From contig NZ_CP036246.2 of the NCBI RefSeq assembly GCF_004299785.2, positions 1,860,001 through 1,924,000 of the forward strand: a DNA stretch of 64,000 nt. Reading direction: 5' to 3'. The DNA is from Arcobacter porcinus. GTDB lineage: Bacteria > Campylobacterota > Campylobacteria > Campylobacterales > Arcobacteraceae. The stretch's first letter is position 1, and the number at the start of each line of letters is the position of its first letter. The translations under genes and the position numbers were made by a program. Positions 21,190 to 50,762 of the stretch are shown in pieces. The notes below the pieces were generated by a model, which saw only the letters and a list, made by a program, of their open reading frames with translations, was not told the DNA's origin and did not search any database.

Positions 21190-21837
21190 TTAATATTTTA
21201 AAGTTTTATCTTCTAAATGATATGTTTTTGAGACTAACTTATCTAAAAAAGCTTGTTTATGAGACACTATTATCATTGATTTTTCTGTATTATTTAAAAT
21301 TTCTAAAACTCTCTTTTCACTACTTTCATCTAAGTCATTTGTAGGTTCATCAAGAAGTAATATCTCAGGCTCTTTAACCAAAATAGCTGCTAATGCTACA
21401 ATTTTTTTCTCTCCTCCACTTAATTCATAGATTACTCTATTTTCTAAATGAAGAATATCTAGTTTTTTTAAGATATCTATACTTTTTTTATATGCTTTCT
21501 CTTTATTAATTCCAAGAGTTCTTAAAGAGAACATAACATCTTCAATTACACTAATAGTTAAAAAAAAGCTATTTATATTTTGTGGTAAATATGCTATTTT
21601 ATCTCTAAACTTTTCAAAATCATCACTACTATTTATTCTATTGTGAAAAAGTTCAATAGTTCCAGCTGATGGAGTTTGTAATCCTGCTATAATTTTTAAT
21701 AATGTAGTTTTACCTACACCATTTTTCCCAATAATTGCTATCTTTTCTTTATGCTTTAAATCAATTATTACATTTTCAAACAATACATAATCATCTTTTT
21801 TATATGAAATATTTTTTAAATTTATTGAACAACTCAT
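21190..21837 (-). CDS. nikO: Nickel/cobalt ECF transporter ATPase (NikO/CbiO-type)
   Basis: An ABC ATPase of 215 residues. Walker A is AIIGKNGVGKTTLLKII, the ABC signature is ELSGGEKKIVALAAIL and Walker B is EILLLDEPTNDLDE, followed by the switch histidine in MIIVSHKQAF. It powers the energy-coupling-factor importer formed with the upstream nikQ, nikM, nikL and nikK products. Its start overlaps the nikQ end by 4 bases. Nickel rather than cobalt is inferred from the adjacent [NiFe]-hydrogenase and hyp genes. Confidence 0.85.
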   Translation of the reverse strand: MSCSINLKNISYKKDDYVLFENVIIDLKHKEKIAIIGKNGVGKTTLLKIIAGLQTPSAGTIELFHNRINSSDDFEKFRDKIAYLPQNINSFFLTISVIEDVMFSLRTLGINKEKAYKKSIDILKKLDILHLENRVIYELSGGEKKIVALAAILVKEPEILLLDEPTNDLDESSEKRVLEILNNTEKSMIIVSHKQAFLDKLVSKTYHLEDKTLKY

Positions 21838-22478
21838 AAAACTACCTTCACTAAAAGTATAATAATCAATAGTACTACTAAAATAAAATCTAAAATTTTG
21901 AAACTATTTTCATAGTTTAAAAAAATCTCATCTTTAAAAGCTCTTATTTTAAAAGTATCTTTTAAACTTTCACTATTTTTAATAGTTTTTATAAAAAGGA
22001 TTCCAAAAATATTTCCATATGTTTTGTATGTAAATATATCTGTTCTTGCTTTAAAATTTCTAGCTTTTAAAGACTCTTTTATACTTTTTAATTCAAGATT
22101 TAAATCAAAAATAAACTTAACTGTAAAATATAAAATAGAGTTAATTTTTTTTGGAAATCTCAATATCATAAAAGCTTTTACAATATCAAACCCACTTGAA
22201 GAGTAAAAAAGTAAAAGATTAAACAGAAGTATAAAATTTACTTTGAAGAATAGTTCTAAAGCTTCATTTATATTACTTTCAAAATATAAAAAAAGAGCCA
22301 ATACAACTATAAAGATATTTAAAAATATTAATTTCTTTAAAATATTTATAATGTTTTTATAGTTTAAATATATAAGGAAAATTATTGGAAGGATAAAAAA
22401 AAGTTCAAATTTTGAGAAACTTAAAATCAAACTAAATCCAACTGCACTCAACAAAGAGATAGCTGGGTTTAATCTCAA
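21834..22478 (-). CDS. nikQ: ECF transporter transmembrane subunit (NikQ/CbiQ-type)
   Basis: A membrane protein of 214 residues with about five hydrophobic helices. The cytoplasmic coupling region ELKSIKESLKARNFKART resembles the arginine-containing coupling motifs of CbiQ/EcfT proteins that dock on the ATPase. It connects the ATPase with the substrate-binding NikM. Both ends overlap neighbouring genes by 4 bases, so it is inside the nikKMLQO operon. Confidence 0.75.
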   Translation of the reverse strand: MRLNPAISLLSAVGFSLILSFSKFELFFILPIIFLIYLNYKNIINILKKLIFLNIFIVVLALFLYFESNINEALELFFKVNFILLFNLLLFYSSSGFDIVKAFMILRFPKKINSILYFTVKFIFDLNLELKSIKESLKARNFKARTDIFTYKTYGNIFGILFIKTIKNSESLKDTFKIRAFKDEIFLNYENSFKILDFILVVLLIIILLVKVVL

Positions 22479-22954
22479 CTTTTAACTCTTTTTATAATTA
22501 AAAATATCAAAGATATTAAAATCAAACCAAAAATAATTTTGAATATTTCAAAATAGTTTAATTGTTCTTCTAAAACCTCTATTTTATTCTTTAGTAAACT
22601 ATTCTCTTCTATTAAATCTTTAAGCTTTTTATCTTCTATTTTTTCTTCAATTATATTTTCATTTTTTATTTTTAAAGATTCTATCTCTTTAGTCACAATA
22701 TGAGAACTTCCAGCATCAACTGTCACTTTAAAATACTCATTTGAACCTTTATAAATATATTCTCCATTATCATTTAATCTATCTTCAAGAACTAATCTAT
22801 CTTTTGTCTCTATTTTAAACTTACAGTTTTTACATGGCTTTGCATTTGCAAAATATGAGTTTATGTATAAACTATCATCTTTTATATCTAAATACATATT
22901 TATCTTATGAGCAAATAGAAATATAGGCAAAACTAAAATTAAAAAAATTCTCAT
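22475..22954 (-). CDS. nikL: Nickel ECF transporter accessory protein (NikL-like)
   Basis: A protein of 159 residues with an N-terminal signal sequence (RIFLILVLPIFLFA), a periplasmic domain with CKNCKF, a coiled-coil segment (LKDLIEENSLLKNKIEVLEE) and a C-terminal transmembrane helix. Topology and position between the M and Q genes match NikL/CbiN-type small subunits that help load metal on NikM. Overall sequence conservation is low, so the call rests mainly on context. Confidence 0.65.
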   Translation of the reverse strand: MRIFLILVLPIFLFAHKINMYLDIKDDSLYINSYFANAKPCKNCKFKIETKDRLVLEDRLNDNGEYIYKGSNEYFKVTVDAGSSHIVTKEIESLKIKNENIIEEKIEDKKLKDLIEENSLLKNKIEVLEEQLNYFEIFKIIFGLILISLIFLIIKRVKS

Positions 22955-23553
22955 ATATTTAATCCTTTAAATAGATTTGGCATCGCCTTTTTTACATATA
23001 AAAATAAGAAAAGTGTGATTAAAGCTTCTAATATCATAGTTGGTATATTTACTATAATTATAGAATATGCAGCATTTTTATACTCTTCTTTTGAAAAAAT
23101 CAGAAGTATAAACATAATAATTGTAGGAATAAGTACTCCAATAAAACCAATTAAAAAAAATTTAACTTTTTCATTTAGTTTTTTAAGAATCTCTATTTTA
23201 AATAACAAAAATACCAAATATGCAGGAACAGCTATAATCAAAATATTTGCTCCTATAGAACTTAATCCACCATATCCCAAAAGTAAAGCTTGAAGAATAA
23301 GTGCAATTGATATAGAAAATATTGCAATACTTCCTAAAAATATTCCAATAAAACCTACAAGCATTAGATGAATTTGAGTAAAACCAAAAGGAATATGAAT
23401 AAATGAAGCTATAAAAAATAAAGCACTAAACGAAGATGCCAATGCTATTTTATCATTTGATAAATTTTTAAAAGAGTAAACTAAAAAACCAAAAGCTACA
23501 GCTGTACTAACTGCTGTAACTTCAAGGCTTAAAACACCATCACTAATATGCAT
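22951..23553 (-). CDS. nikM: ECF transporter substrate-specific subunit NikM/CbiM
   Basis: A membrane protein of 200 residues with about six to seven helices. It begins MHISDGVLS; in NikM/CbiM the amino group, His2 and further histidines form the metal site, so this start is well fixed. SFIHIPFGFTQIHLMLVGFIG has the other conserved histidines. It binds Ni(II) (or Co(II)) in the membrane and works with NikK and NikL on the outside. The stop overlaps the nikL start by 4 bases. Confidence 0.87.
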   Translation of the reverse strand: MHISDGVLSLEVTAVSTAVAFGFLVYSFKNLSNDKIALASSFSALFFIASFIHIPFGFTQIHLMLVGFIGIFLGSIAIFSISIALILQALLLGYGGLSSIGANILIIAVPAYLVFLLFKIEILKKLNEKVKFFLIGFIGVLIPTIIMFILLIFSKEEYKNAAYSIIIVNIPTMILEALITLFLFLYVKKAMPNLFKGLNI

Positions 23554-23554
23554 A

Positions 23555-24280
23555 TTAGTGTGCTTTTATCCAAATTAATGCACCATTTTCAATAGGATAT
23601 TTTTTTCCATTTAGCTCTTTTTCATTTTCTACCATTAAACCAGCAAATCCCCACCAACCTTTTTGGTTCATAACAAAAGAGAAAACTCCATTTTTATCTG
23701 TTTTTACAGTTTGAGTAGTATGCATTTCTGTTGGAGCCTTAATACCAGCTTCATTGTATAGTTCAACCTCAACACTAATATTAGCTTGTGGTTTTCCATC
23801 TTTTAGAAAAACTCCTTGAAAAAGATTTCCAGAGTATAAAGCAAATGGTTTTGTAAGAGGGACAATCTCATATTTTAAACCAATTGGCTCATCCCATCCT
23901 TCTTGTACACCAAATGAACTAACTATAACTTTTGGAACATGGCTGATAAATAGATCTTCTGCTTCCTCAAAATATGGCTCTGGTTGTACAAAAAACTTAT
24001 AAACACCTGGTGTTTTAATCTCATAACTTGTAGTCCAAGCTTTGTGATCAAACTTTTTTGTCTCCGTTAAAGGCAATGAGTTTTTAGTACTATTTACAAA
24101 AATTCCTTTTGGTTTTTCCATATTCATACCACTTTGATCAAAAGGGTGAATAAACATAGCATCTAATTCTATTTTTGCATCTTTTTTATCTTCAACATTG
24201 TCCGTACTTGGAAGAAGAGTTAAGAAGTGAGCATTTGCGAAAAGCGATGCTAAAGCTAATAAACTTATAATTTTTTTCAT
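23555..24280 (-). CDS. nikK: Periplasmic nickel-binding component NikK (DUF4198-type)
   Basis: An exported protein of 241 residues. After the signal peptide (SLLALASLFANA) the mature protein begins HFLTLLPSTD; an N-terminal histidine after cleavage is typical of the DUF4198/NikK family and is a likely metal ligand. MFIHPFDQSGMNMEKP and MNQKGWWGFAGLMVE are further conserved stretches. It is the first gene of nikKMLQO and has its own promoter region after hypA, with TATAAT at 24313-24308 and the shared 18-base element at 24351-24368. Confidence 0.82.
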   Translation of the reverse strand: MKKIISLLALASLFANAHFLTLLPSTDNVEDKKDAKIELDAMFIHPFDQSGMNMEKPKGIFVNSTKNSLPLTETKKFDHKAWTTSYEIKTPGVYKFFVQPEPYFEEAEDLFISHVPKVIVSSFGVQEGWDEPIGLKYEIVPLTKPFALYSGNLFQGVFLKDGKPQANISVEVELYNEAGIKAPTEMHTTQTVKTDKNGVFSFVMNQKGWWGFAGLMVENEKELNGKKYPIENGALIWIKAH

Positions 24281-24307: not shown

Positions 24308-24313
24308 ATTATA
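24308..24313 (-). promoter_or_regulatory. Candidate -10 element of the nikKMLQO promoter
   Basis: On the minus strand TATAAT sits 28-33 bases before the nikK ATG. No good -35 is seen at the right distance (ATATTT), which fits a promoter that needs an activator. The repeated element at 24351-24368 would be centred near -59. Confidence 0.45.
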
Positions 24314-24350: not shown

Positions 24351-24368
24351 CTTATATATTTTTAGAAC
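24351..24368 (-). repeat. 18-base element shared with the hypB upstream region, copy 1
   Basis: CTTATATATTTTTAGAAC (plus strand) is identical to 29623-29640. This copy lies 71-88 bases upstream of nikK, just after the hypA stop codon. In this copy it is part of an imperfect inverted repeat (GTTTCTTA...TAGAACC). It is a candidate binding site for a nickel- or hydrogenase-related regulator; no NikR consensus is evident. Confidence 0.55.
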
Positions 24369-24372
24369 CAAT

Positions 24373-24714
24373 TCACTCTAATTCTAAACTCATCAAATAC
24401 ATATCTTCACCATCTATTACTTTTATATCTGTACTTTTGCATTTTGGACATGAAAACTCATGTTTTTCCAATATTGATTCACTATTGCATTTATTACAAG
24501 AAATCTCAACTTTTTGAATATTTATTATAAATTCTGCTTTATCACATATTGTTTTTTCTTTAAAAGTATCAAAAGCTGTTTGAAGTAAATTAGGTTCAAC
24601 TCCACTTAAAACTCCAATTTTTACAACTACTTTTGTAACTTCTTTTGCACTATTTTGTCTTGCATGTTCTTCACAACTTTCCAATAGTGACTGAACTATA
24701 CTATATTCATGCAT
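24373..24714 (-). CDS. hypA: Hydrogenase nickel insertion protein HypA
   Basis: A metallochaperone of 113 residues that, with HypB, delivers Ni to the hydrogenase large subunit. It starts MHEYSIVQSLL, with the nickel ligand His2, which fixes the start. The zinc site is two CxxC pairs, CNKC and CPKC, near residues 73-93. It is the last gene of the hypBCD-KAP-MazG-hypE-hypA unit. In Helicobacter HypA also serves urease; no urease gene is in this window. Confidence 0.95.
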   Translation of the reverse strand: MHEYSIVQSLLESCEEHARQNSAKEVTKVVVKIGVLSGVEPNLLQTAFDTFKEKTICDKAEFIINIQKVEISCNKCNSESILEKHEFSCPKCKSTDIKVIDGEDMYLMSLELE

Positions 24715-24731: not shown

Positions 24732-25730
24732 TTAGCATATTCTTGGAAGAAGCTCACCACTTGGTATATCTAAAAATCTTTTAGTTCCCCATGGACTATT
24801 TAAAATAACTTTTTCTGGATATTCTTGTGTCACTTTCCCAATAATTGAAGCATTTTTTTTATCATTAAATCTATTTAGTATCTCAATAGTTTTTTCTGCA
24901 TCACTTCTTGAGATAGCTAATACAAATGTTCCTTCGTTTGCTAAATTTGTTGCTTCAAATCCAAGTATTTCACAAACTCCTTTTACTTCATCACTTACAG
25001 GAATACTATCTTCTTCTATTTCTATACAAATATTTGATTGCTTTGCCCATTCATTTAAAACTGCACTAACTCCACCTCTTGTAGCATCTCTTAAAGCAGT
25101 TATCTTTATTTTACTATCTATTAAAGCTTTTACTTGTGGAAATAAAGAGGCACAATCACTTTGTAAATTTGAATTTAATTCTATTCCTTCTCTTGCAGTA
25201 AAAATAGTAGCTCCATGAGCTCCAATATCTCTACTTACTATTATTAAATCATCTTCACTTATATTATTTGAACTAATTCCTTGATAAAGCACTTCTCCAA
25301 TACCTGTTGTATTTATAAAAATCTTATCAACTGCTCCTTTTGGTACTACTTTTGTATCTCCACTTACAACTATTGCTTCATTAAGTTCAAGCTCTTTTTT
25401 CATAGAATTTACTATATTTTGTAGTTGTTCTACTTCAAATCCCTCTTCAATAATTACTGAACATGTAAGGTATTTTGGCTTTGCTCCCATCATTGCTAAA
25501 TCGTTACAAGTTCCACAAATAGCAAGTTTTCCTATATCTGCACCTTTAAAAAACAGTGGACTTACCGTAAATGAATCTGTACTAAAAGCAAGTTTTCCAT
25601 TTTCAATAATAGCTGCATCTTCACTTTTTTCTAAAATATCATTTTTAAAAGCTTTATAAAAAACCTCTTTAATTAGTTCATTATTTTCTAATCCACCATT
25701 TCCATGAGCTAAACTTACTATTTGTGTCAT
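24732..25730 (-). CDS. hypE: Hydrogenase maturation protein HypE (carbamoyl dehydratase)
   Basis: A 332-residue protein of the PurM/AIR-synthase-like ATPase superfamily. It takes the carbamoyl group from HypF onto its C-terminal cysteine and dehydrates it to thiocyanate, the source of the CN ligands of the NiFe site. The C-terminus PSGELLPRIC, with the final cysteine, is diagnostic. AAIIENGKLAFSTDSFTVSP and ALRDATRGGVSAVLNEWAKQ are conserved nucleotide-binding blocks. It overlaps the MazG-like gene by 4 bases. Confidence 0.96.
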   Translation of the reverse strand: MTQIVSLAHGNGGLENNELIKEVFYKAFKNDILEKSEDAAIIENGKLAFSTDSFTVSPLFFKGADIGKLAICGTCNDLAMMGAKPKYLTCSVIIEEGFEVEQLQNIVNSMKKELELNEAIVVSGDTKVVPKGAVDKIFINTTGIGEVLYQGISSNNISEDDLIIVSRDIGAHGATIFTAREGIELNSNLQSDCASLFPQVKALIDSKIKITALRDATRGGVSAVLNEWAKQSNICIEIEEDSIPVSDEVKGVCEILGFEATNLANEGTFVLAISRSDAEKTIEILNRFNDKKNASIIGKVTQEYPEKVILNSPWGTKRFLDIPSGELLPRIC

Positions 25731-26083
25731 CTATTTTCTCTACTTTTACTATATTTTTTACTTCCTACTTGAGAAGTTTCACTTGGATATTTTAATTCAT
25801 TTTTTATCATTTTATTTAAAATTGCTTCTTCTAAGTCAATATCCAATTTCATACAAATTCGTATAAGATATATTGCAATATCTGCTACTTCCTCTTTTGT
25901 ATGTTCTTTCACATCTTCTGGTAAATTTATACTCTCTTCAAAATTTAACCACTGAAAAATCTCATTTAGCTCTCCAACTTCTCCATTTAATGCCATAACT
26001 AGATTTTTTGGATTATGAAACTCTTCCCAATTTCTATCATCACTAAACTTTTGAATTCTTTGTTTTATTTTTTCTATATTCAT
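25727..26083 (-). CDS. MazG-like nucleotide pyrophosphohydrolase
   Basis: A small all-alpha NTP pyrophosphatase of 118 residues. The metal site is formed by NGEVGELNEIFQWL (ExxE) and KEEVADIAIYLIRIC (EExxD), and RNWEEFHNPKNLVMALNGE is typical of the short MazG/dCTPase group. Such enzymes hydrolyse (d)NTPs to monophosphates and pyrophosphate, for cleaning the pool or as part of stress and phage responses. Here it is inserted between hypD and hypE with 4-base overlap to hypE and 2 bases from the KAP-like gene. It has no known role in hydrogenase maturation. Confidence 0.85.
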   Translation of the reverse strand: MNIEKIKQRIQKFSDDRNWEEFHNPKNLVMALNGEVGELNEIFQWLNFEESINLPEDVKEHTKEEVADIAIYLIRICMKLDIDLEEAILNKMIKNELKYPSETSQVGSKKYSKSRENR

Positions 26084-26085
26084 AT

Positions 26086-27312
26086 TTACTCTTTTATTAA
26101 AATTCCAGTTTCTATAAACTTATTTATTTTTGTAAAAGTATCATCATCTATTCCTCTTCCAATATCAAGTTTATTTGCAAAATAGATACTTTTGAATATT
26201 AAAATATTATCTTCTATAAATTTTAAATCTATTCTTACAACCTCATCTAAAGACTCTTTTTTTGTTTTAATTTTATTTTTTAGTTCCATTTTAAAGTCTA
26301 AGAAAGTATTATTTGTAGAAATATAATCTAAATAAAAAAAATTAAAATTTGTTCTAATTTCAGTATCAATATGATAAACATATTTAATTTCGTTAAGATT
26401 AATTTTTATAGAACATAAAATTGTATGGTATAAAATAAAATTTATATTTACTAGAATTAAGCTTCTTAATGTATTATTATTTTTATCTTGATTATTAGCT
26501 ATCCATTCAATAAGATTATCTAAAATTTGGATATAAATTCTTGCATTTAGTATATCTGTTTCTTGTATTGTTTTTAAGATCAATTCTTTGTATTCATCTA
26601 ATTTTTTATAAGATTCATTTCCAAATATTATTTCAAATAACTCTTTTGTAGTTGGCTCATATTTTATATATTTTGATACAGATTTTTCTTTTACATTTGA
26701 AAATATTGTCTTATCACCATCTTCAAAAGCATCATCATTTAAAATAATTACTACTTTACATGAAAAATTTAAAGTCAGTTGAGTTATAAAACCAAATAAG
26801 TCATTTAAATCAATATCTTTTGATTTTCTTTCAAAGTCATCAAAACAAATAATTGCTCCACTATTAAGATATTCTACTGTTTTTTCTAATTTCTTATTTT
26901 TTAATATATTTTCTAGTTTATCAAATGGTTTATCTGATACTTTTGATATATCTAAATTTACTCCAAAAAAATTAATTGCACTAGAAAAAGATGAAAATAG
27001 ATTGACCACATTTTTGCTAAGCTCTACTGCTTTCTCTTTTGACTCAAAAGAGTCTACGCTTTCAAAGATTTTTAAAAAAATCTCGTTTTCAATCTCTTGG
27101 ATAGATTTTTTACCATAAAGACTTATATAATGATTTGGTATTTTTTTATCTTTTTCATTATTTAAATTTTCAATAATTTTATCTTTCCAAAAGAAAGTTT
27201 TACCACTTCCCCATTTTCCAGAAAGCATAATTATCTTATGGTTTGAAATATTACTTTTTAAATAACCATTTTCTCCAATTAAATACTCTTTTATTATTTC
27301 TTGATTTGTCAT
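26086..27312 (-). CDS. KAP-like P-loop NTPase
   Basis: A 408-residue ATPase. Walker A is MLSGKWGSGKTFFWKDKI near residues 29-46 and Walker B is AIICFDDFERKS near 152-163. NHYISLYGKKSIQEIENEIF between them resembles KAP-family NTPases. There is no clear transmembrane insertion. The C-terminal half is rich in helices and has no recognised domain. Related proteins occur in phage-exclusion and other accessory loci. It sits between hypD and the MazG-like gene in the hyp unit, and its AT content and codon use look extreme even for this window. Function unknown. Confidence 0.7.
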   Translation of the reverse strand: MTNQEIIKEYLIGENGYLKSNISNHKIIMLSGKWGSGKTFFWKDKIIENLNNEKDKKIPNHYISLYGKKSIQEIENEIFLKIFESVDSFESKEKAVELSKNVVNLFSSFSSAINFFGVNLDISKVSDKPFDKLENILKNKKLEKTVEYLNSGAIICFDDFERKSKDIDLNDLFGFITQLTLNFSCKVVIILNDDAFEDGDKTIFSNVKEKSVSKYIKYEPTTKELFEIIFGNESYKKLDEYKELILKTIQETDILNARIYIQILDNLIEWIANNQDKNNNTLRSLILVNINFILYHTILCSIKINLNEIKYVYHIDTEIRTNFNFFYLDYISTNNTFLDFKMELKNKIKTKKESLDEVVRIDLKFIEDNILIFKSIYFANKLDIGRGIDDDTFTKINKFIETGILIKE

Positions 27313-27329: not shown

Positions 27330-28457
27330 TTATTTTAATAAATTCCCATATTTATAATAAGCACTACAAGCACCCTCACTACTTACCATACAAGAACCAA
27401 TTGGGTTTGCTGGATTACATACAGTTCCAAAAATTTTACAATCAGTTGGTTTTGCAACTCCTTTTAAAATTTCAGGACATCTACAAACTTTATTCTCTTT
27501 TACCTCGTGTGTTGGAAGTATATTTTTATAAACTATTTTTGCATTATAATTTTCTAACTCATCTTTTAACTCATATCCACTATTTTCTACTTCGCCAATT
27601 CCTCTAAATTTAAAAGGAACTTTTTTGAAGTATCTATTTATAAGCTCTTGAGCTTTTATATTTCCATCATAAGAAACAAGCCTTTTATACTCTATTTCAA
27701 GATTTGCTCTTTGTTCCTTAAACTGTTTTACAATCATATAAATACTTTGCATCACATCAACTGGCTCAAAACCAGCTACAACAACAGGTTTATTGTACTT
27801 TAAAGGAAACTCTTCATAAATTTTACTTCCACTAATAACACTTACATGAGATGGTCCTAAAAAAGCATCTATCTTACAATTTTCATCATCTACTAAAACT
27901 CTCATAACCTCAGGAACTGTAATATGGTTTATAGAAAATAGAATATTTTTAATATCATTTTTAATAACTTGTTCAATTAAAGCACAAGTCATAGGAGTTG
28001 TTGTTTCAAAACCAATTGCAAAAAAGATTATAATTTTATCTCTATTTTCACTAGCAATTTTCAAACAATCAAGTGGAGAATAGACAAATCTTACATAAGC
28101 ACCTTTGCTTCTAGCATCTTGTAAACTACCAAGGCTTCCAGGAACTTTTATCATATCTCCAAGCGTTACAAGTATCACATCTTTTTGTAAACTTAAAGTA
28201 TATGCACTATCAATTCTATCTTTTGGCATAACACAAACAGGGCAACCAGGTCCATGAATAAAATTAATTTTTTTATCCATAATTTGTGGTATTCCATACT
28301 TCATAATTGTATGAGTATGCCCTCCACAAACCTCCATAATATTTATAGTTTTAGGATAATCTTTTAACTCATCATCTATTAGTTTTTTAAATGCTTTTAT
28401 TGTTTTTGCATCTCTAAAACCATCATATAAATCTTTTAATTCTAAACTATTTTTCAT
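27330..28457 (-). CDS. hypD: Hydrogenase maturation protein HypD
   Basis: A 375-residue iron-sulfur protein that with HypC builds the Fe(CN)2CO group. Conserved blocks are NIMEVCGGHTHTIMKYGI, INFIHGPGCPVCVMPKDRID and GFETTTPMTCALI. The C-terminal cysteines of the [4Fe-4S] site are in CRCPEILKGVAKPTDCKIFG and CNPANPIGSCMVSSEGACSAYY. It lies 2 bases after hypC. Confidence 0.97.
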   Translation of the reverse strand: MKNSLELKDLYDGFRDAKTIKAFKKLIDDELKDYPKTINIMEVCGGHTHTIMKYGIPQIMDKKINFIHGPGCPVCVMPKDRIDSAYTLSLQKDVILVTLGDMIKVPGSLGSLQDARSKGAYVRFVYSPLDCLKIASENRDKIIIFFAIGFETTTPMTCALIEQVIKNDIKNILFSINHITVPEVMRVLVDDENCKIDAFLGPSHVSVISGSKIYEEFPLKYNKPVVVAGFEPVDVMQSIYMIVKQFKEQRANLEIEYKRLVSYDGNIKAQELINRYFKKVPFKFRGIGEVENSGYELKDELENYNAKIVYKNILPTHEVKENKVCRCPEILKGVAKPTDCKIFGTVCNPANPIGSCMVSSEGACSAYYKYGNLLK

Positions 28458-28459
28458 TT

Positions 28460-28741
28460 TTATCTATTTGGACAATTTTGGGAATCTTCAATAGCCACTA
28501 ACCTATCTTCTTCCTCGAGCTCTTCTATTATCTTTTCATAAAGCTTGAGAGATTCCAAAGCATACTCTTCATCTATTTTATTCATTGCAAATCCAATATG
28601 AATCAACACATAGTCCCCTATTTGTACCTCTTCATCTATCAAATCCAAACTAGCAACTCTTTCAACACCCATAGTATCAACTACACAACTATTTAACTCT
28701 TTATCTATACTTTTTATTTTTGATGGAATTGATAAACACAT
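28460..28741 (-). CDS. hypC: Hydrogenase maturation chaperone HypC
   Basis: A 93-residue chaperone. It starts MCLSIPSKI; Cys2 binds the iron centre during assembly and fixes the start. GDYVLIHIGFAMNKIDEEYA is the second conserved block. It forms a complex with HypD and then passes the iron group to the hydrogenase large subunit precursor. It is between hypB (4 bases) and hypD (2 bases). A short charged C-terminal tail extends past the usual core. Confidence 0.95.
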   Translation of the reverse strand: MCLSIPSKIKSIDKELNSCVVDTMGVERVASLDLIDEEVQIGDYVLIHIGFAMNKIDEEYALESLKLYEKIIEELEEEDRLVAIEDSQNCPNR

Positions 28742-28745
28742 CTTG

Positions 28746-29543
28746 TTATCTCATCTTTCTTTTAAAGTTTATCCAATCAATAACATTTTGAAGTGATTGC
28801 TTATCTTTTATAGAAACTTCCAAAATATCAACATTTGGTTTTAGTTTTCTAGCTTCAGTTTTCTCTTTTTCTATATCATATTCAAAGTGCGGAAGTAGAT
28901 CAACTTTTGTAAAAAGTATTAAATCAGCACTTCTAAACATAACTGGATATTTTGCTATTTTATCTTCACCTTCTGGAATTGAAACCATAACAATATTTAA
29001 ATGAGTTCCTACATCATAAGATGCTGGACAAACTAAATTCCCAACATTTTCCACAAAACAAACATCAATATTTTCTAAAGATAGATCATGTAAACCTTTA
29101 TGAACCATAAATGCGTCAAGATGACAAGCACTTCCTGTTTGTATCTGAACAGCATCTATTCCTTTTGCTTTTAATCTATCTGCATCTCTTGAAGTTTCTA
29201 AATCACCCTCTACAACTGCAAATTTAAAATCTGCAATATCTACTATATGTTCCAAAAGCGTAGTTTTTCCACTTCCAGGACTCGACATAAGATTTATTCC
29301 TAAAACTTTATGATTATCAAAATGAGCTCTATTATGTCTTGCTTCATGGTCATTTTTATCTAAAATCTTTTGAATAACAGAAATTGTTTTTGCATCATTT
29401 AGCTGTGGATTATGATGTATATTCTCATTTAAATGAGAATGCTCATGTGAATGATGATGATCATGAGAGTGCTCGTGATGATGTTCATGATCATGATGAT
29501 TATGTTCTTGTCCTGCTATTGTACAACCGCAATCTTTACACAT
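28746..29543 (-). CDS. hypB: Hydrogenase nickel incorporation GTPase HypB
   Basis: A 265-residue GTPase. It begins with CKDCGCTI, a high-affinity Ni motif, followed by a histidine-rich stretch to about residue 45 that can store nickel. The GTPase core has Walker A LMSSPGSGKTTLLEHI, VEGDLETSRDADR, the metal site QIQTGSACHLDAFM and the guanine motif LFTKVDLLPH. It heads the hypBCD unit. A promoter is likely in the 117 bases upstream, where the 18-base element shared with nikK occurs. Confidence 0.96.
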   Translation of the reverse strand: MCKDCGCTIAGQEHNHHDHEHHHEHSHDHHHSHEHSHLNENIHHNPQLNDAKTISVIQKILDKNDHEARHNRAHFDNHKVLGINLMSSPGSGKTTLLEHIVDIADFKFAVVEGDLETSRDADRLKAKGIDAVQIQTGSACHLDAFMVHKGLHDLSLENIDVCFVENVGNLVCPASYDVGTHLNIVMVSIPEGEDKIAKYPVMFRSADLILFTKVDLLPHFEYDIEKEKTEARKLKPNVDILEVSIKDKQSLQNVIDWINFKRKMR

Positions 29544-29562
29544 TTTTATTTCCTTTTGTTTT

Positions 29563-29590
29563 TATATATCTTTTATCTAGTTTAACTCAA
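29563..29590 (-). promoter_or_regulatory. Candidate promoter of the hypB operon
   Basis: On the minus strand TTGAGT (29590-29585), 16 bases, then TATATA (29568-29563), about 20 bases before the hypB ATG. The match is moderate. The 18-base element lies about 50-70 bases further upstream. Confidence 0.35.
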
Positions 29591-29622
29591 AAAGGCTAAA
29601 TATCTAATAATAGTCTATGTCA

Positions 29623-29640
29623 CTTATATATTTTTAGAAC
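29623..29640 (-). repeat. 18-base element shared with the nikK upstream region, copy 2
   Basis: CTTATATATTTTTAGAAC (plus strand), identical to 24351-24368. It is 80-97 bases upstream of hypB, 9 bases further than the nikK copy, close to one helical turn. It is also 21 bases before the divergent transposase-derived gene. Confidence 0.55.
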
Positions 29641-29660
29641 AAACTTGATAAACTATTCTT

Positions 29661-48796: not shown

Positions 48797-49684
48797 ATGA
48801 GAATTAATACAAACGTATCTTCATTAAATGCTCAAGAGTCTTCAACTCTTACAAATAACAAAATCAAAAATTCACTAGAAAAATTATCTTCTGGTTTACA
48901 AATTAACAAAGCTTCTGATGATGCTTCTGGTCTTGCTATTGCAGATAAATTAAGAACTCAAGTTACATCTATTAACCAAGGTGTTTCAAACGGTAACTCT
49001 GCTATTGCTTTATTACAAATTGCTGATAAATCTATGGCTGAGCAATCAAATATTCTTGATACAGTAAAAGCAAAACTAATTCAAGCAAATACAGATACTA
49101 CATCTCAAGCTGGTAGAACTGCTATTGCAAAAGACGTTAATAAACTTCTTGAACAATTAGGTAATATTGCAAAACAGACTAACTATAATGGTACAAATTT
49201 ACTTCAAGCAACAGCTACAAATGGTGCAGCTAAAACAGCTCTATCTTTCCAAGTTGGTGAGAATGCTAGAGATGAGATTAAAACTACTGATATTCAAGCT
49301 AATGTTACAGGATATGCATTAAATACTTTAAAAGGTCAAGTTTCTTTAGGTGCTGTTGTTTCTGCTGATGCTACTGCTGGTACAACTAATGCATTTTCAA
49401 GGGCACATGCTACAGCTGGTCAAGCTGCAATTGATAAAGCTATTTCGACTCTAAATGGATATAGAGGAGATATCGGTTCTACTCAAAACCAAGTTGAATC
49501 TGCTGTTAGAAACTTAATGACTCAATCTACAAATATTAAAGCAGCTGAGTCTGTGATTAGAGATGTTGATTATGCTGCTGAAAGTGCTAACTTCAATAAA
49601 TTGAATATCATTTCTCAAGCTGGTTCTTATGCAATCAGCCAAGCAAATGCTACTCAACAAAATGTTCTTAGATTACTTCAATAA
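48797..49684 (+). CDS. flaA: Flagellin A
   Basis: A short flagellin of 295 residues, the filament subunit secreted by the flagellar type III system. The N-terminal D0/D1 has RINTNVSSLNAQESSTLTNN and SSGLQINKASDDASGLAIAD. The C-terminal has GDIGSTQNQVESAVRNLMTQ and ends NVLRLLQ. Only a small variable middle (about residues 165-220) is present, as in Arcobacter, instead of the large D2/D3 of Campylobacter. Ser/Thr in the middle are probable sites for the pseudaminic acid made by the neighbouring genes. It is followed by a terminator. Confidence 0.96.
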   Translation: MRINTNVSSLNAQESSTLTNNKIKNSLEKLSSGLQINKASDDASGLAIADKLRTQVTSINQGVSNGNSAIALLQIADKSMAEQSNILDTVKAKLIQANTDTTSQAGRTAIAKDVNKLLEQLGNIAKQTNYNGTNLLQATATNGAAKTALSFQVGENARDEIKTTDIQANVTGYALNTLKGQVSLGAVVSADATAGTTNAFSRAHATAGQAAIDKAISTLNGYRGDIGSTQNQVESAVRNLMTQSTNIKAAESVIRDVDYAAESANFNKLNIISQAGSYAISQANATQQNVLRLLQ

Positions 49685-49742
49685 TCTAAGTTAAATATAG
49701 AAATTGGACTTTAATCCTTTTTCTATAATATTCTCTTTTATT

Positions 49743-49786
49743 AAAAGAAGTGAAGTTAATTTTCTTCACTTCTTTTCTTTTTGATT
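49743..49786 (+). terminator. Terminator between flaA and flaB
   Basis: A perfect 13-base stem, AAAAGAAGTGAAG (49743-49755) and CTTCACTTCTTTT (49764-49776), 8-base loop and a T-rich tail. It makes flaA and flaB separate transcripts. Confidence 0.85.
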
Positions 49787-49839
49787 CTTTTTAATCTATT
49801 TTTATGATTTACTTTGTATAATAGTCCAATTTAAATATT

Positions 49840-49855
49840 CACAATGTGACATAAT
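49840..49855 (+). promoter_or_regulatory. Flagellin upstream element, flaB copy
   Basis: CACAATGTGACATAAT, ending 19 bases before the flaB ATG; the same element as at 48761-48776 with one difference. Here the palindrome extends to TCACA-A-TGTGA. Flanking sequence is not conserved, pointing to selection on the element. Confidence 0.55.
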
Positions 49856-49874
49856 CTAAAATAAGGACATATTT

Positions 49875-50762
49875 ATGAAAATAAATACAAATGTATCTTC
49901 ATTAACAGCTCAAGAGTCTTCAACTCTTACAAATAATGCTCTTAAAAATTCTTTAGAAAAACTAAGTTCTGGTTTAAAAATAAATAAAGCTAGTGATGAT
50001 GCTTCTGGTTTAGCTATTGCTGATAAACTTAGAACTCAGGTTACTTCTGTAAATCAAGGAATTGCAAATGGTAATTCAGCTATTGCTATGTTACAAATTG
50101 CTGATAAATCTATGGCTGAGCAGTCTCAAATTCTGGATACAGTAAAAGCAAAACTAATCCAAGCAAATACAGATACTACTTCAACAGCTGGTAGAACTGC
50201 TATTGCTAAAGATATTACAAAGTTACTTGATCAGTTAAATAATATTGCAAAACAAACAAATTATAATGGTACAGCTTTACTTCAAGCAACAGCTACAAAT
50301 GGTGCAGCTAAAACAGCTCTATCTTTCCAAATTGGTGAAAGTACAAGAGATATGATCTCAACTGCAACTATTCAAGCAAATATTACAGGATATTCATTAG
50401 ATACTTTAAAAGGTGAAGTTTCTTTAGGTGCTGCTGTTTCTGCTGGTGCTACTGCTGGAACTACAAATGTATTTACAAGGGCAATGGCTACAGCTGGTCA
50501 AGCTGCTGTTGATAAAGCTATTACAACTCTAAATGGTTATAGAGGAGATATTGGTTCTACTCAAAATCAAATTGAAAGTGCTGTTAGAAATTTAATGACT
50601 CAATCTACAAATATAAAAAATGCGGAATCAGTTTTAAGAGATGTTGATTATGCTGAAGAGAGTGCAAACTTTAATAAGCTAAATATCATTTCTCAAGCTG
50701 GTTCTTATGCTATTAGTCAGTCAAATGCTGTTTCTCAAAATGTTCTTAGACTACTTCAATAG
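49875..50762 (+). CDS. flaB: Flagellin B
   Basis: A second flagellin of 295 residues, colinear with FlaA without gaps and very similar along its length. It differs at scattered positions, for example KINTNVSSLTAQESS at the start and SNAVSQNVLRLLQ at the end. The middle region differs most (STRDMISTATIQANITGY). A 55-base block (50276-50330) is identical to flaA, suggesting gene conversion. It has its own copy of the flagellin element and a separate terminator at 50783-50816. Confidence 0.96.
   Translation: MKINTNVSSLTAQESSTLTNNALKNSLEKLSSGLKINKASDDASGLAIADKLRTQVTSVNQGIANGNSAIAMLQIADKSMAEQSQILDTVKAKLIQANTDTTSTAGRTAIAKDITKLLDQLNNIAKQTNYNGTALLQATATNGAAKTALSFQIGESTRDMISTATIQANITGYSLDTLKGEVSLGAAVSAGATAGTTNVFTRAMATAGQAAVDKAITTLNGYRGDIGSTQNQIESAVRNLMTQSTNIKNAESVLRDVDYAEESANFNKLNIISQAGSYAISQSNAVSQNVLRLLQ

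Follow-up and report, generated by a model that had tools for sequence, protein, structure and literature searches.

A sequence of 18 bases occurs twice in the 64,000-nucleotide stretch of Arcobacter porcinus DNA that was analyzed here (the window), once ahead of the hydrogenase maturation gene hypB and once ahead of nikK, the first gene of a nickel importer operon. This raises the question of whether the two units share a control site and, if so, which protein reads it. A window search found CTTATATATTTTTAGAAC exactly at both places, each time on the plus strand; read on the strand of the genes, it is GTTCTAAAAATATATAAG. The initial annotation had suggested that the element may be an operator through which nickel uptake and hydrogenase maturation are controlled jointly, and that the protein which binds it is perhaps the transposase-derived one encoded next to it. 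The exact match, its common orientation, and its distances to the start codons of nikK (71 bases), hypB (80 bases), and the neighboring gene (21 bases) were all confirmed. Our reading, to which we assign a probability of roughly 80%, is that the 18-mer is an operator bound by the product of this neighboring gene, here given the working name TnpL. TnpL would be a regulator without catalytic activity that activates the genes for nickel uptake and [NiFe]-hydrogenase maturation and restrains its own synthesis. The features of the region are collected in Table 1.

Table 1. Element copies, putative promoter boxes, and genes of the nickel and hydrogenase region, in window coordinates.
Feature	Position	Strand	Basis
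Candidate operator element GTTCTAAAAATATATAAG, common to hypB (-) and divergent tnpL (+)	29623..29640	-	exact match; conservation in the genus; de novo class motif
Candidate operator element GTTCTAAAAATATATAAG of the nikK operon, between hypA and nikK	24351..24368	-	exact match; conservation in the genus
TAAACT, putative -10 box of hypB at a spacing of 38 bases to the element	29579..29584	-	spacing of 37-39 is the commonest at hypB
TATAAT, putative -10 box of nikK at a spacing of 37 bases to the element	24308..24313	-	spacing of 37/38 at nikK/nikM
TGATAAACT, putative extended -10 box of tnpL at a spacing of 8 bases to the element	29646..29654	+	spacing of 8-10 is the commonest
tnpL (working name), candidate regulator, 215 aa	29661..30308	+	sub-threshold IS1595 matches; structure model
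Predicted parts of the tnpL product: four-Cys zinc ribbon, helix-turn-helix, degenerate integrase-like core			invariant cysteines; loss of catalytic Glu in homologs; structure model
hypB, first gene of the maturation operon	28746..29543	-	PF02492; His-rich N terminus
hypC	28460..28741	-	ORF; matching ORF adjoins hypB in relatives
hypD	27330..28457	-	ORF; matching ORF in relatives
KAP-family P-loop NTPase inside the hyp operon	26086..27312	-	PF07693
MazG-like small protein inside the hyp operon	25727..26083	-	ORF; name from sequence only
hypE	24732..25730	-	ORF; matching ORF in relatives
hypA, last gene ahead of the nikK element	24373..24714	-	ORF; matching ORF in relatives
nikK, first gene of the nickel importer operon	23555..24280	-	DUF4198, PF10670
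nikM	22951..23553	-	CbiM, PF01891
nikL	22475..22954	-	NF058648 NikL-type subunit, E 1.2e-11 but below cut-off
nikQ	21834..22478	-	CbiQ, PF02361
nikO, importer ATPase	21190..21837	-	ORF; ABC ATPase motifs, name by position

The exact repeat had been called unlikely by chance, and this argument did not survive. Order-3 Markov sequence with 27% G+C contains on average 1.9 exact repeats of at least 18 bases per 64 kb, and the window holds four further exact pairs of this length when the duplicated flagellin genes are excluded. The repeat was therefore rejected as evidence by itself, and the count of matches with up to three mismatches is only mildly raised (3, with 0.82 expected). The flagellin genes, two in tandem at 48797-50762, are identical over long stretches. 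A pattern search of the 2,018,219-base genome returned the exact 18-mer only at the two sites described and one more copy with a single mismatch, rather than the many unrelated copies that the initial annotation named as grounds for abandoning the idea. The one-mismatch copy (G000:C1:1170832) is taken as a chance occurrence because it overlaps the start of a short ORF and is otherwise found only in the closest species. Since the repeat is at chance level, the case for the element rests on comparison with relatives, and it is conservation rather than the exact match that makes it significant.

Within the genus, 31 genomes were searched allowing one mismatch, and 34 matches were found as compared to about 8 for the reversed pattern. 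Most lie between hypB and a divergent tnpL, before nikK, or beside a hydrogenase small-subunit gene, while a few (L043, L044, and L056) are apparently chance matches. Upstream of nikK, the element lies at -84 to -94 in each of the 22 genomes that have this gene. Upstream of hypB, it lies at -88 to -117 in all tnpL-bearing genomes whose hypB upstream region was readable; in G029, the hypB site has diverged to GTTCCAAAAACACCTAAC, the second-best match there. In most of the genomes, the tnpL promoter carries the element at -37/-38 or about one helical turn further out, at -49/-50. The genus consensus is GTTC[TC]AAA[AT]A[TC]A[TC][AC]TAA[GC], in which GTTC is invariant and the TAAG end nearly so. 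In some variants of the element, such as GTTCTAAAAATACCTAAG, CTAA recurs 10 bases apart, possibly as two directly repeated half-sites that face the same side of the helix.

The gene tnpL is present once in 25 of the 31 genomes, and hypB is likewise found in 25 of 31; the complete genomes without hypB (G009 and G028) both also lack tnpL. G023 has the nikK element with no tnpL found, and this genome is fragmented, its hypB contig ending at that point. Where tnpL has moved away from hypB, it keeps an element of its own (G001, G016, G018, G020, G021, and G029). No element stands directly before tnpL in G004, G010, G011, and G025, nor in G002/G006, so any autoregulation would not be universal. At three loci (L064, L071, and L074, belonging to G011, G010, and G025), tnpL is separated from the hypB element by an extra ORF, so that it is about 500 bases from that element, and it lacks one of its own. 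Downstream of the element, the hypB leader (window 28746-29599) contains a second conserved stretch, which reads TTTAGACTTTTTGGGTTAAACT on the strand of hypB and is present in many of the genus genomes. This stretch coincides in part with the putative -10 box, and the remainder is without explanation.

De novo motif discovery arrived at the same element across the class. Expectation-maximisation was run on 112 regions upstream of tnpL, without the 18-mer as input, and yielded GTYCYAAAANTATATAAG/GTCCCAAAAATATATAAGAA, a motif of 22.5 bits that is the same as the 18-mer. Its log-likelihood was 934, as compared to 63-68 in shuffled sets. The motif is present in ∼81% of the 112 regions, always in one orientation, and about a fifth are without it. 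When 558 kb of loci were scanned with the position weight matrix, sites appeared at the promoters of tnpL, hypB, nikK, and nikM, with one unexplained match (L174), and the scan of shuffled sequence gave no sites. Overall, sites are found almost only before nikK, nikM, a NikA-like gene, hypB, tnpL, and some hydrogenase genes.

Ten sites that fit the strict pattern and are distant from tnpL were inspected individually, with unscanned ORFs named from inspection of the sequence. Four precede nikK and one hypB; one precedes, at the same distance, the NikA-like gene of a different nickel importer; one lies between a hydrogenase small-subunit gene and a divergent gene for an ABC-transporter binding protein; and one is ∼175 bases from a hydrogenase small-subunit gene. 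The remaining two are located inside a coding sequence (L358) and in a genome without tnpL (L339). At L050, L053, L042, and L346, a hydrogenase small-subunit gene is preceded, at a distance of ∼175 bases, by an element in the reverse orientation. For the one near hydA (L346), the opposite orientation and the distance are not accounted for by the promoter geometry described below. Judged by sequence comparison, nickel-uptake and hydrogenase genes of free-living Campylobacteria have in the 18-mer a conserved control site. This supports the joint operator of the initial annotation, and conservation, which was to be sought in close relatives, reaches far beyond the genus.

The same data bear on whether the element could be an ordinary part of an AT-rich promoter, or an RNA element, that has no dedicated protein. 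The upstream regions of Campylobacteria promoters are typically AT-rich, as is the element, and the exact match alone is within chance. However, an invariant GTTC and a nearly invariant TAAG across the genus, together with sites that are few, function-specific, and lost along with tnpL, are not what this explanation predicts, and an Rfam scan of the 20-40 kb portion of the window detected no known RNA family or riboswitch. We consider it extremely improbable.

The distribution of TnpL was determined by searching its profile in 397 Campylobacteria genomes. Full-length or long homologs were found in 125, and 17 more genomes gave only weak C-terminal matches; those examined proved to be active IS1595 elements. 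Among 40 distant tnpL loci, inspected with 14 kb around each, hyp, nik, or hydrogenase genes were present in all but about one (L172), and most of the tnpL genes are divergent from hypB, nikK, or nikM. A tnpL (L276) from a metagenome bin that bears the title Helicobacter pylori PMSS1 groups with Arcobacteraceae sequences, and the species label is probably wrong. The strict motif and a strong TnpL match occur together in 68 of the 397 genomes, the motif only in 22, TnpL only in 57, and neither in 250. The resulting association (odds ratio 13.6, Fisher p = 3e-23) is indicative only, since related genomes were counted as independent and the p values of such co-occurrences are too small. In all 20 tnpL-less genomes with hypB that were analyzed, hypB has no site: the best score at these loci was 14 and most were below 10, as compared to 12 to 29 in TnpL-bearing relatives. 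Four genomes carry two copies of TnpL, one beside nikK and the other near hypB. In these, the nikK site has T at position 13 and the hypB site has C, a distinction that rests on four cases only, and the nikK-linked copies form their own well-supported clade.

Five observations support TnpL as the binder that the initial annotation had suspected. A tnpL gene relocated away from hypB still has the element in its promoter; across the 397 genomes, element and protein co-occur; and in the 20 genomes that lack the protein, no element is found at hypB. Each of the two TnpL copies of a two-copy genome goes with its own site variant, and the present genome has no NikR. Some of this would also be seen if another trans-acting protein, such as a response regulator or an unlisted regulator, read the element and tnpL were a mere member of the regulon, because co-occurrence and common promoters fit any regulon member. 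An atypical response regulator, CemR, does affect energy metabolism genes in A. butzleri (PMC11334517). Against such a reader, the element is tied most tightly to tnpL (also the only gene that was screened for such a correlation), which adjoins it in most genomes, keeps a copy when relocated, and has the same distribution. The two copies in two-copy genomes go with different site variants, and TnpL has a zinc ribbon and a predicted helix-turn-helix, as expected of a DNA-binding protein. We therefore regard a different reader as quite improbable.

Among known metal regulators, NikR is the obvious candidate, and it was ruled out as the reader of the element in this genome: its C-terminal domain (PF08753) has no match here, while control genomes were matched. 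NikR is also absent from 104 of the 125 tnpL-bearing genomes. Outside the Sulfurospirillaceae (family f10), 2 genomes have both proteins, 102 have TnpL only, and 126 have NikR only, which is a near exclusion (odds ratio 0.023, p = 6.5e-20, with genomes treated as independent although they are related). Within the Sulfurospirillaceae, NikR and TnpL both occur. In eight genomes of this family (G254, G231, G084, G150, G191, G363, G220, and G172), nikR directly adjoins tnpL on the opposite strand, and the two regulators may act together there. The two proteins have a similar apparent target set, consisting of nickel importers, hydrogenase genes, and their own or a neighboring gene. However, NikR, a ribbon-helix-helix protein with the PF08753 metal domain, is unrelated to TnpL, and its site lies over the core promoter, whereas the TnpL element lies upstream of it. 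We propose that TnpL would stand in for the missing NikR.

That the element is instead an operator of a known metal regulator, either NikR or Fur, is very improbable. We take the element to be distinct from the NikR palindrome and presumably unlike the Helicobacter NikR or Fur boxes. The attraction of this explanation is that the targets are nickel genes and that, in Helicobacter pylori, NikR and Fur both control hydrogenase and nickel genes (PMC6682613). Besides the absence of NikR noted above, genomes without tnpL, many of which bear NikR, have no element at hypB, and iron genes, the expected targets of Fur, are not among the sites.

What kind of protein is TnpL? Cysteines 3, 6, 21, and 24 are invariant in 74 sequences and form an N-terminal zinc ribbon. 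Among these homologs, 43 of 74 match PF12760 at E ≤ 0.1, and 68 of 74 match NF033547 weakly, with a best E of 2.9e-9. The protein of the window is below the curated cut-offs of all three relevant models (NF033547, 21.2 versus 75 bits; PF12762, 13.5 versus 27 bits; PF12760, 17.9 versus 25.4 bits). An AlphaFold2 model of TnpL has a mean pLDDT of 83. In this model, residues 33-85 align to a NarL/LuxR-type helix-turn-helix (Z up to 5.8, a weak value within the chance range) and residues 84-208 to retroviral integrase cores (Z ∼5, likewise within the chance range). Foldseek of the model against the PDB gave no significant match, and a PDB sequence search with TnpL returned nothing.

By its sequence, TnpL is a conserved, remote relative of IS1595 transposases. 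The C-terminal region resembles that of the ISXO2/IS1016-like proteins (e.g., KFKGIKKENFLLHLKECEFRYN aligned with KYKGVDENNFFYYLKECEFRFN), and further likeness is found in the zinc ribbon, as in PF12760, and possibly in the integrase-like fold of the model. TnpL differs from these transposases in its catalytic residues. In an alignment with active IS1595 proteins, the catalytic Glu of GIENFW is present in 0 of 47 homologs, while the Phe two residues further on is present in all 47. The segment with the second catalytic Asp is largely deleted (Asp at this column in 5/47), and the first Asp remains in 22/47. TnpL is very probably catalytically dead. It also differs in being a single copy at a fixed functional locus: there is one copy of tnpL per genome in the genus, whereas the active IS1595 relatives in the class are multi-copy.

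With this ancestry, TnpL could also be viewed as a transposase that is silent or in decay, with the element left over from its terminal repeat. The relationship to IS1595 is in keeping with it, and so is the terminal repeat of active IS1595 elements of the class, GGCTCAAGATAAGTTAAG, which weakly resembles the element in register (shuffle p of 0.006 and 0.04 for the two ends, or 0.015 and 0.10 with the first G held). Decay is, however, hard to reconcile with a single copy, an intact frame, invariant cysteines, a core conserved class-wide, a fixed place in functional clusters, and separate elements at genes far from tnpL, and we give it hardly any credence. These same properties of the gene mark tnpL as a preserved host gene. 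The similarity to the terminal repeat is weak, and descent of the element from it is kept as a lead only.

The position of the element within the promoters suggests how TnpL might act. The -10 boxes considered here are best consensus guesses, and start sites were predicted from the usual box-to-start distance. The best -10 box begins 37-39 bases past the element at 21 of 30 nikK, 5 of 8 nikM, and 30 of 54 hypB sites; at the other 24 hypB sites, it lies elsewhere. For tnpL, it begins 8-10 bases past the element at 43 of 94 sites. Relative to the inferred start, the element therefore spans approximately -67 to -50 at nikK and hypB and approximately -38 to -21 at tnpL. The offset of about one helical turn between the nikK and hypB copies, to which the initial annotation had drawn attention, turned out to be an artefact of measuring to start codons, as the distances from the putative -10 boxes are 37 and 38 bases.

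The sites at nikK, nikM, and hypB resemble those of class I activator promoters in lying at a fixed distance upstream of the predicted core promoter. We infer that TnpL would bind the operator upstream of nikK and hypB at the class I activator position and would activate the nickel uptake and maturation genes. At tnpL, the operator would cover the -35 region, so that binding of TnpL would restrain its own transcription. A single element in the hypB/tnpL intergenic region would thus serve both the activation of hypB and the restraint of tnpL. This arrangement is similar to that of LysR-type regulators, which are divergent from their target, share one site with it, activate the target, and limit themselves. 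TnpL differs from them in lacking a LysR domain and in having a zinc ribbon and a predicted helix-turn-helix and integrase-like core instead. The list of targets makes nickel supply the likeliest signal, and TnpL would probably read nickel availability, possibly via its zinc-ribbon cysteines or a partner.

TnpL could also be a regulator of opposite sign, which represses nikK and hypB in nickel excess in the way that NikR does. NikR, which TnpL seemingly replaces, is a nickel-dependent repressor of uptake genes, and the element in the core promoter of tnpL itself is what an autorepressor would have. At nikK, nikM, and hypB, though, the element is ∼37 bases upstream of the -10 box and outside the core promoter, and activators usually bind upstream of the core promoter. 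In addition, a cell that makes hydrogenase while nickel is scarce requires HypB and the uptake genes at the same time. Repression at these genes is therefore possible but unlikely, and activation by TnpL is the reading that we prefer.

A candidate activator of this kind bears on how nickel genes are controlled where NikR is missing. In a survey of nickel use, fewer than half of the organisms that have NikABCDE also had NikR, and the existence of control independent of NikR was inferred (PMC2667541). The hydrogenases of S. multivorans have been described as lacking regulators other than NikR, and the main hydrogenase of this organism is reported to be constitutive, which counts against the regulation proposed here (PMC5357620). 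Our search of an open-access library found no report of a transposase-like regulator in Campylobacterota hydrogenase clusters. For Campylobacteria without NikR, the present analysis names both a protein and a site for the control of nickel and hydrogenase genes and predicts a regulon of small size.

If the proposal is true, TnpL is a transcription regulator derived from a DDE transposase and preserved across a bacterial class, of which we found no example in the open-access literature. The nearest bacterial case to our knowledge is TldR, a TnpB-derived, RNA-guided repressor that works via RNA guides. In plants, FHY3 and FAR1 are likewise derived from a transposase that lost catalysis, kept DNA binding, and is now a transcription regulator (PMC13306707). 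They differ from TnpL in belonging to the MULE transposase family, in being eukaryotic, and in having no tie to metal. It is tempting to speculate that a transposase without catalysis became, early in Campylobacteria, a master regulator that senses nickel (or hydrogen), that it replaced NikR in most free-living lineages, and that its operator arose from the terminal repeat of the ancestral transposon, though this scenario as a whole is tentative and on balance doubtful.

The hyp operon of the window also contains a KAP-family NTPase and a MazG-like protein between hypD and hypE, a pair that is unmatched at this place in most of the relatives compared. The KAP NTPase is probably not part of the function of the operon, and the pair may be a recent, defence-like insertion.
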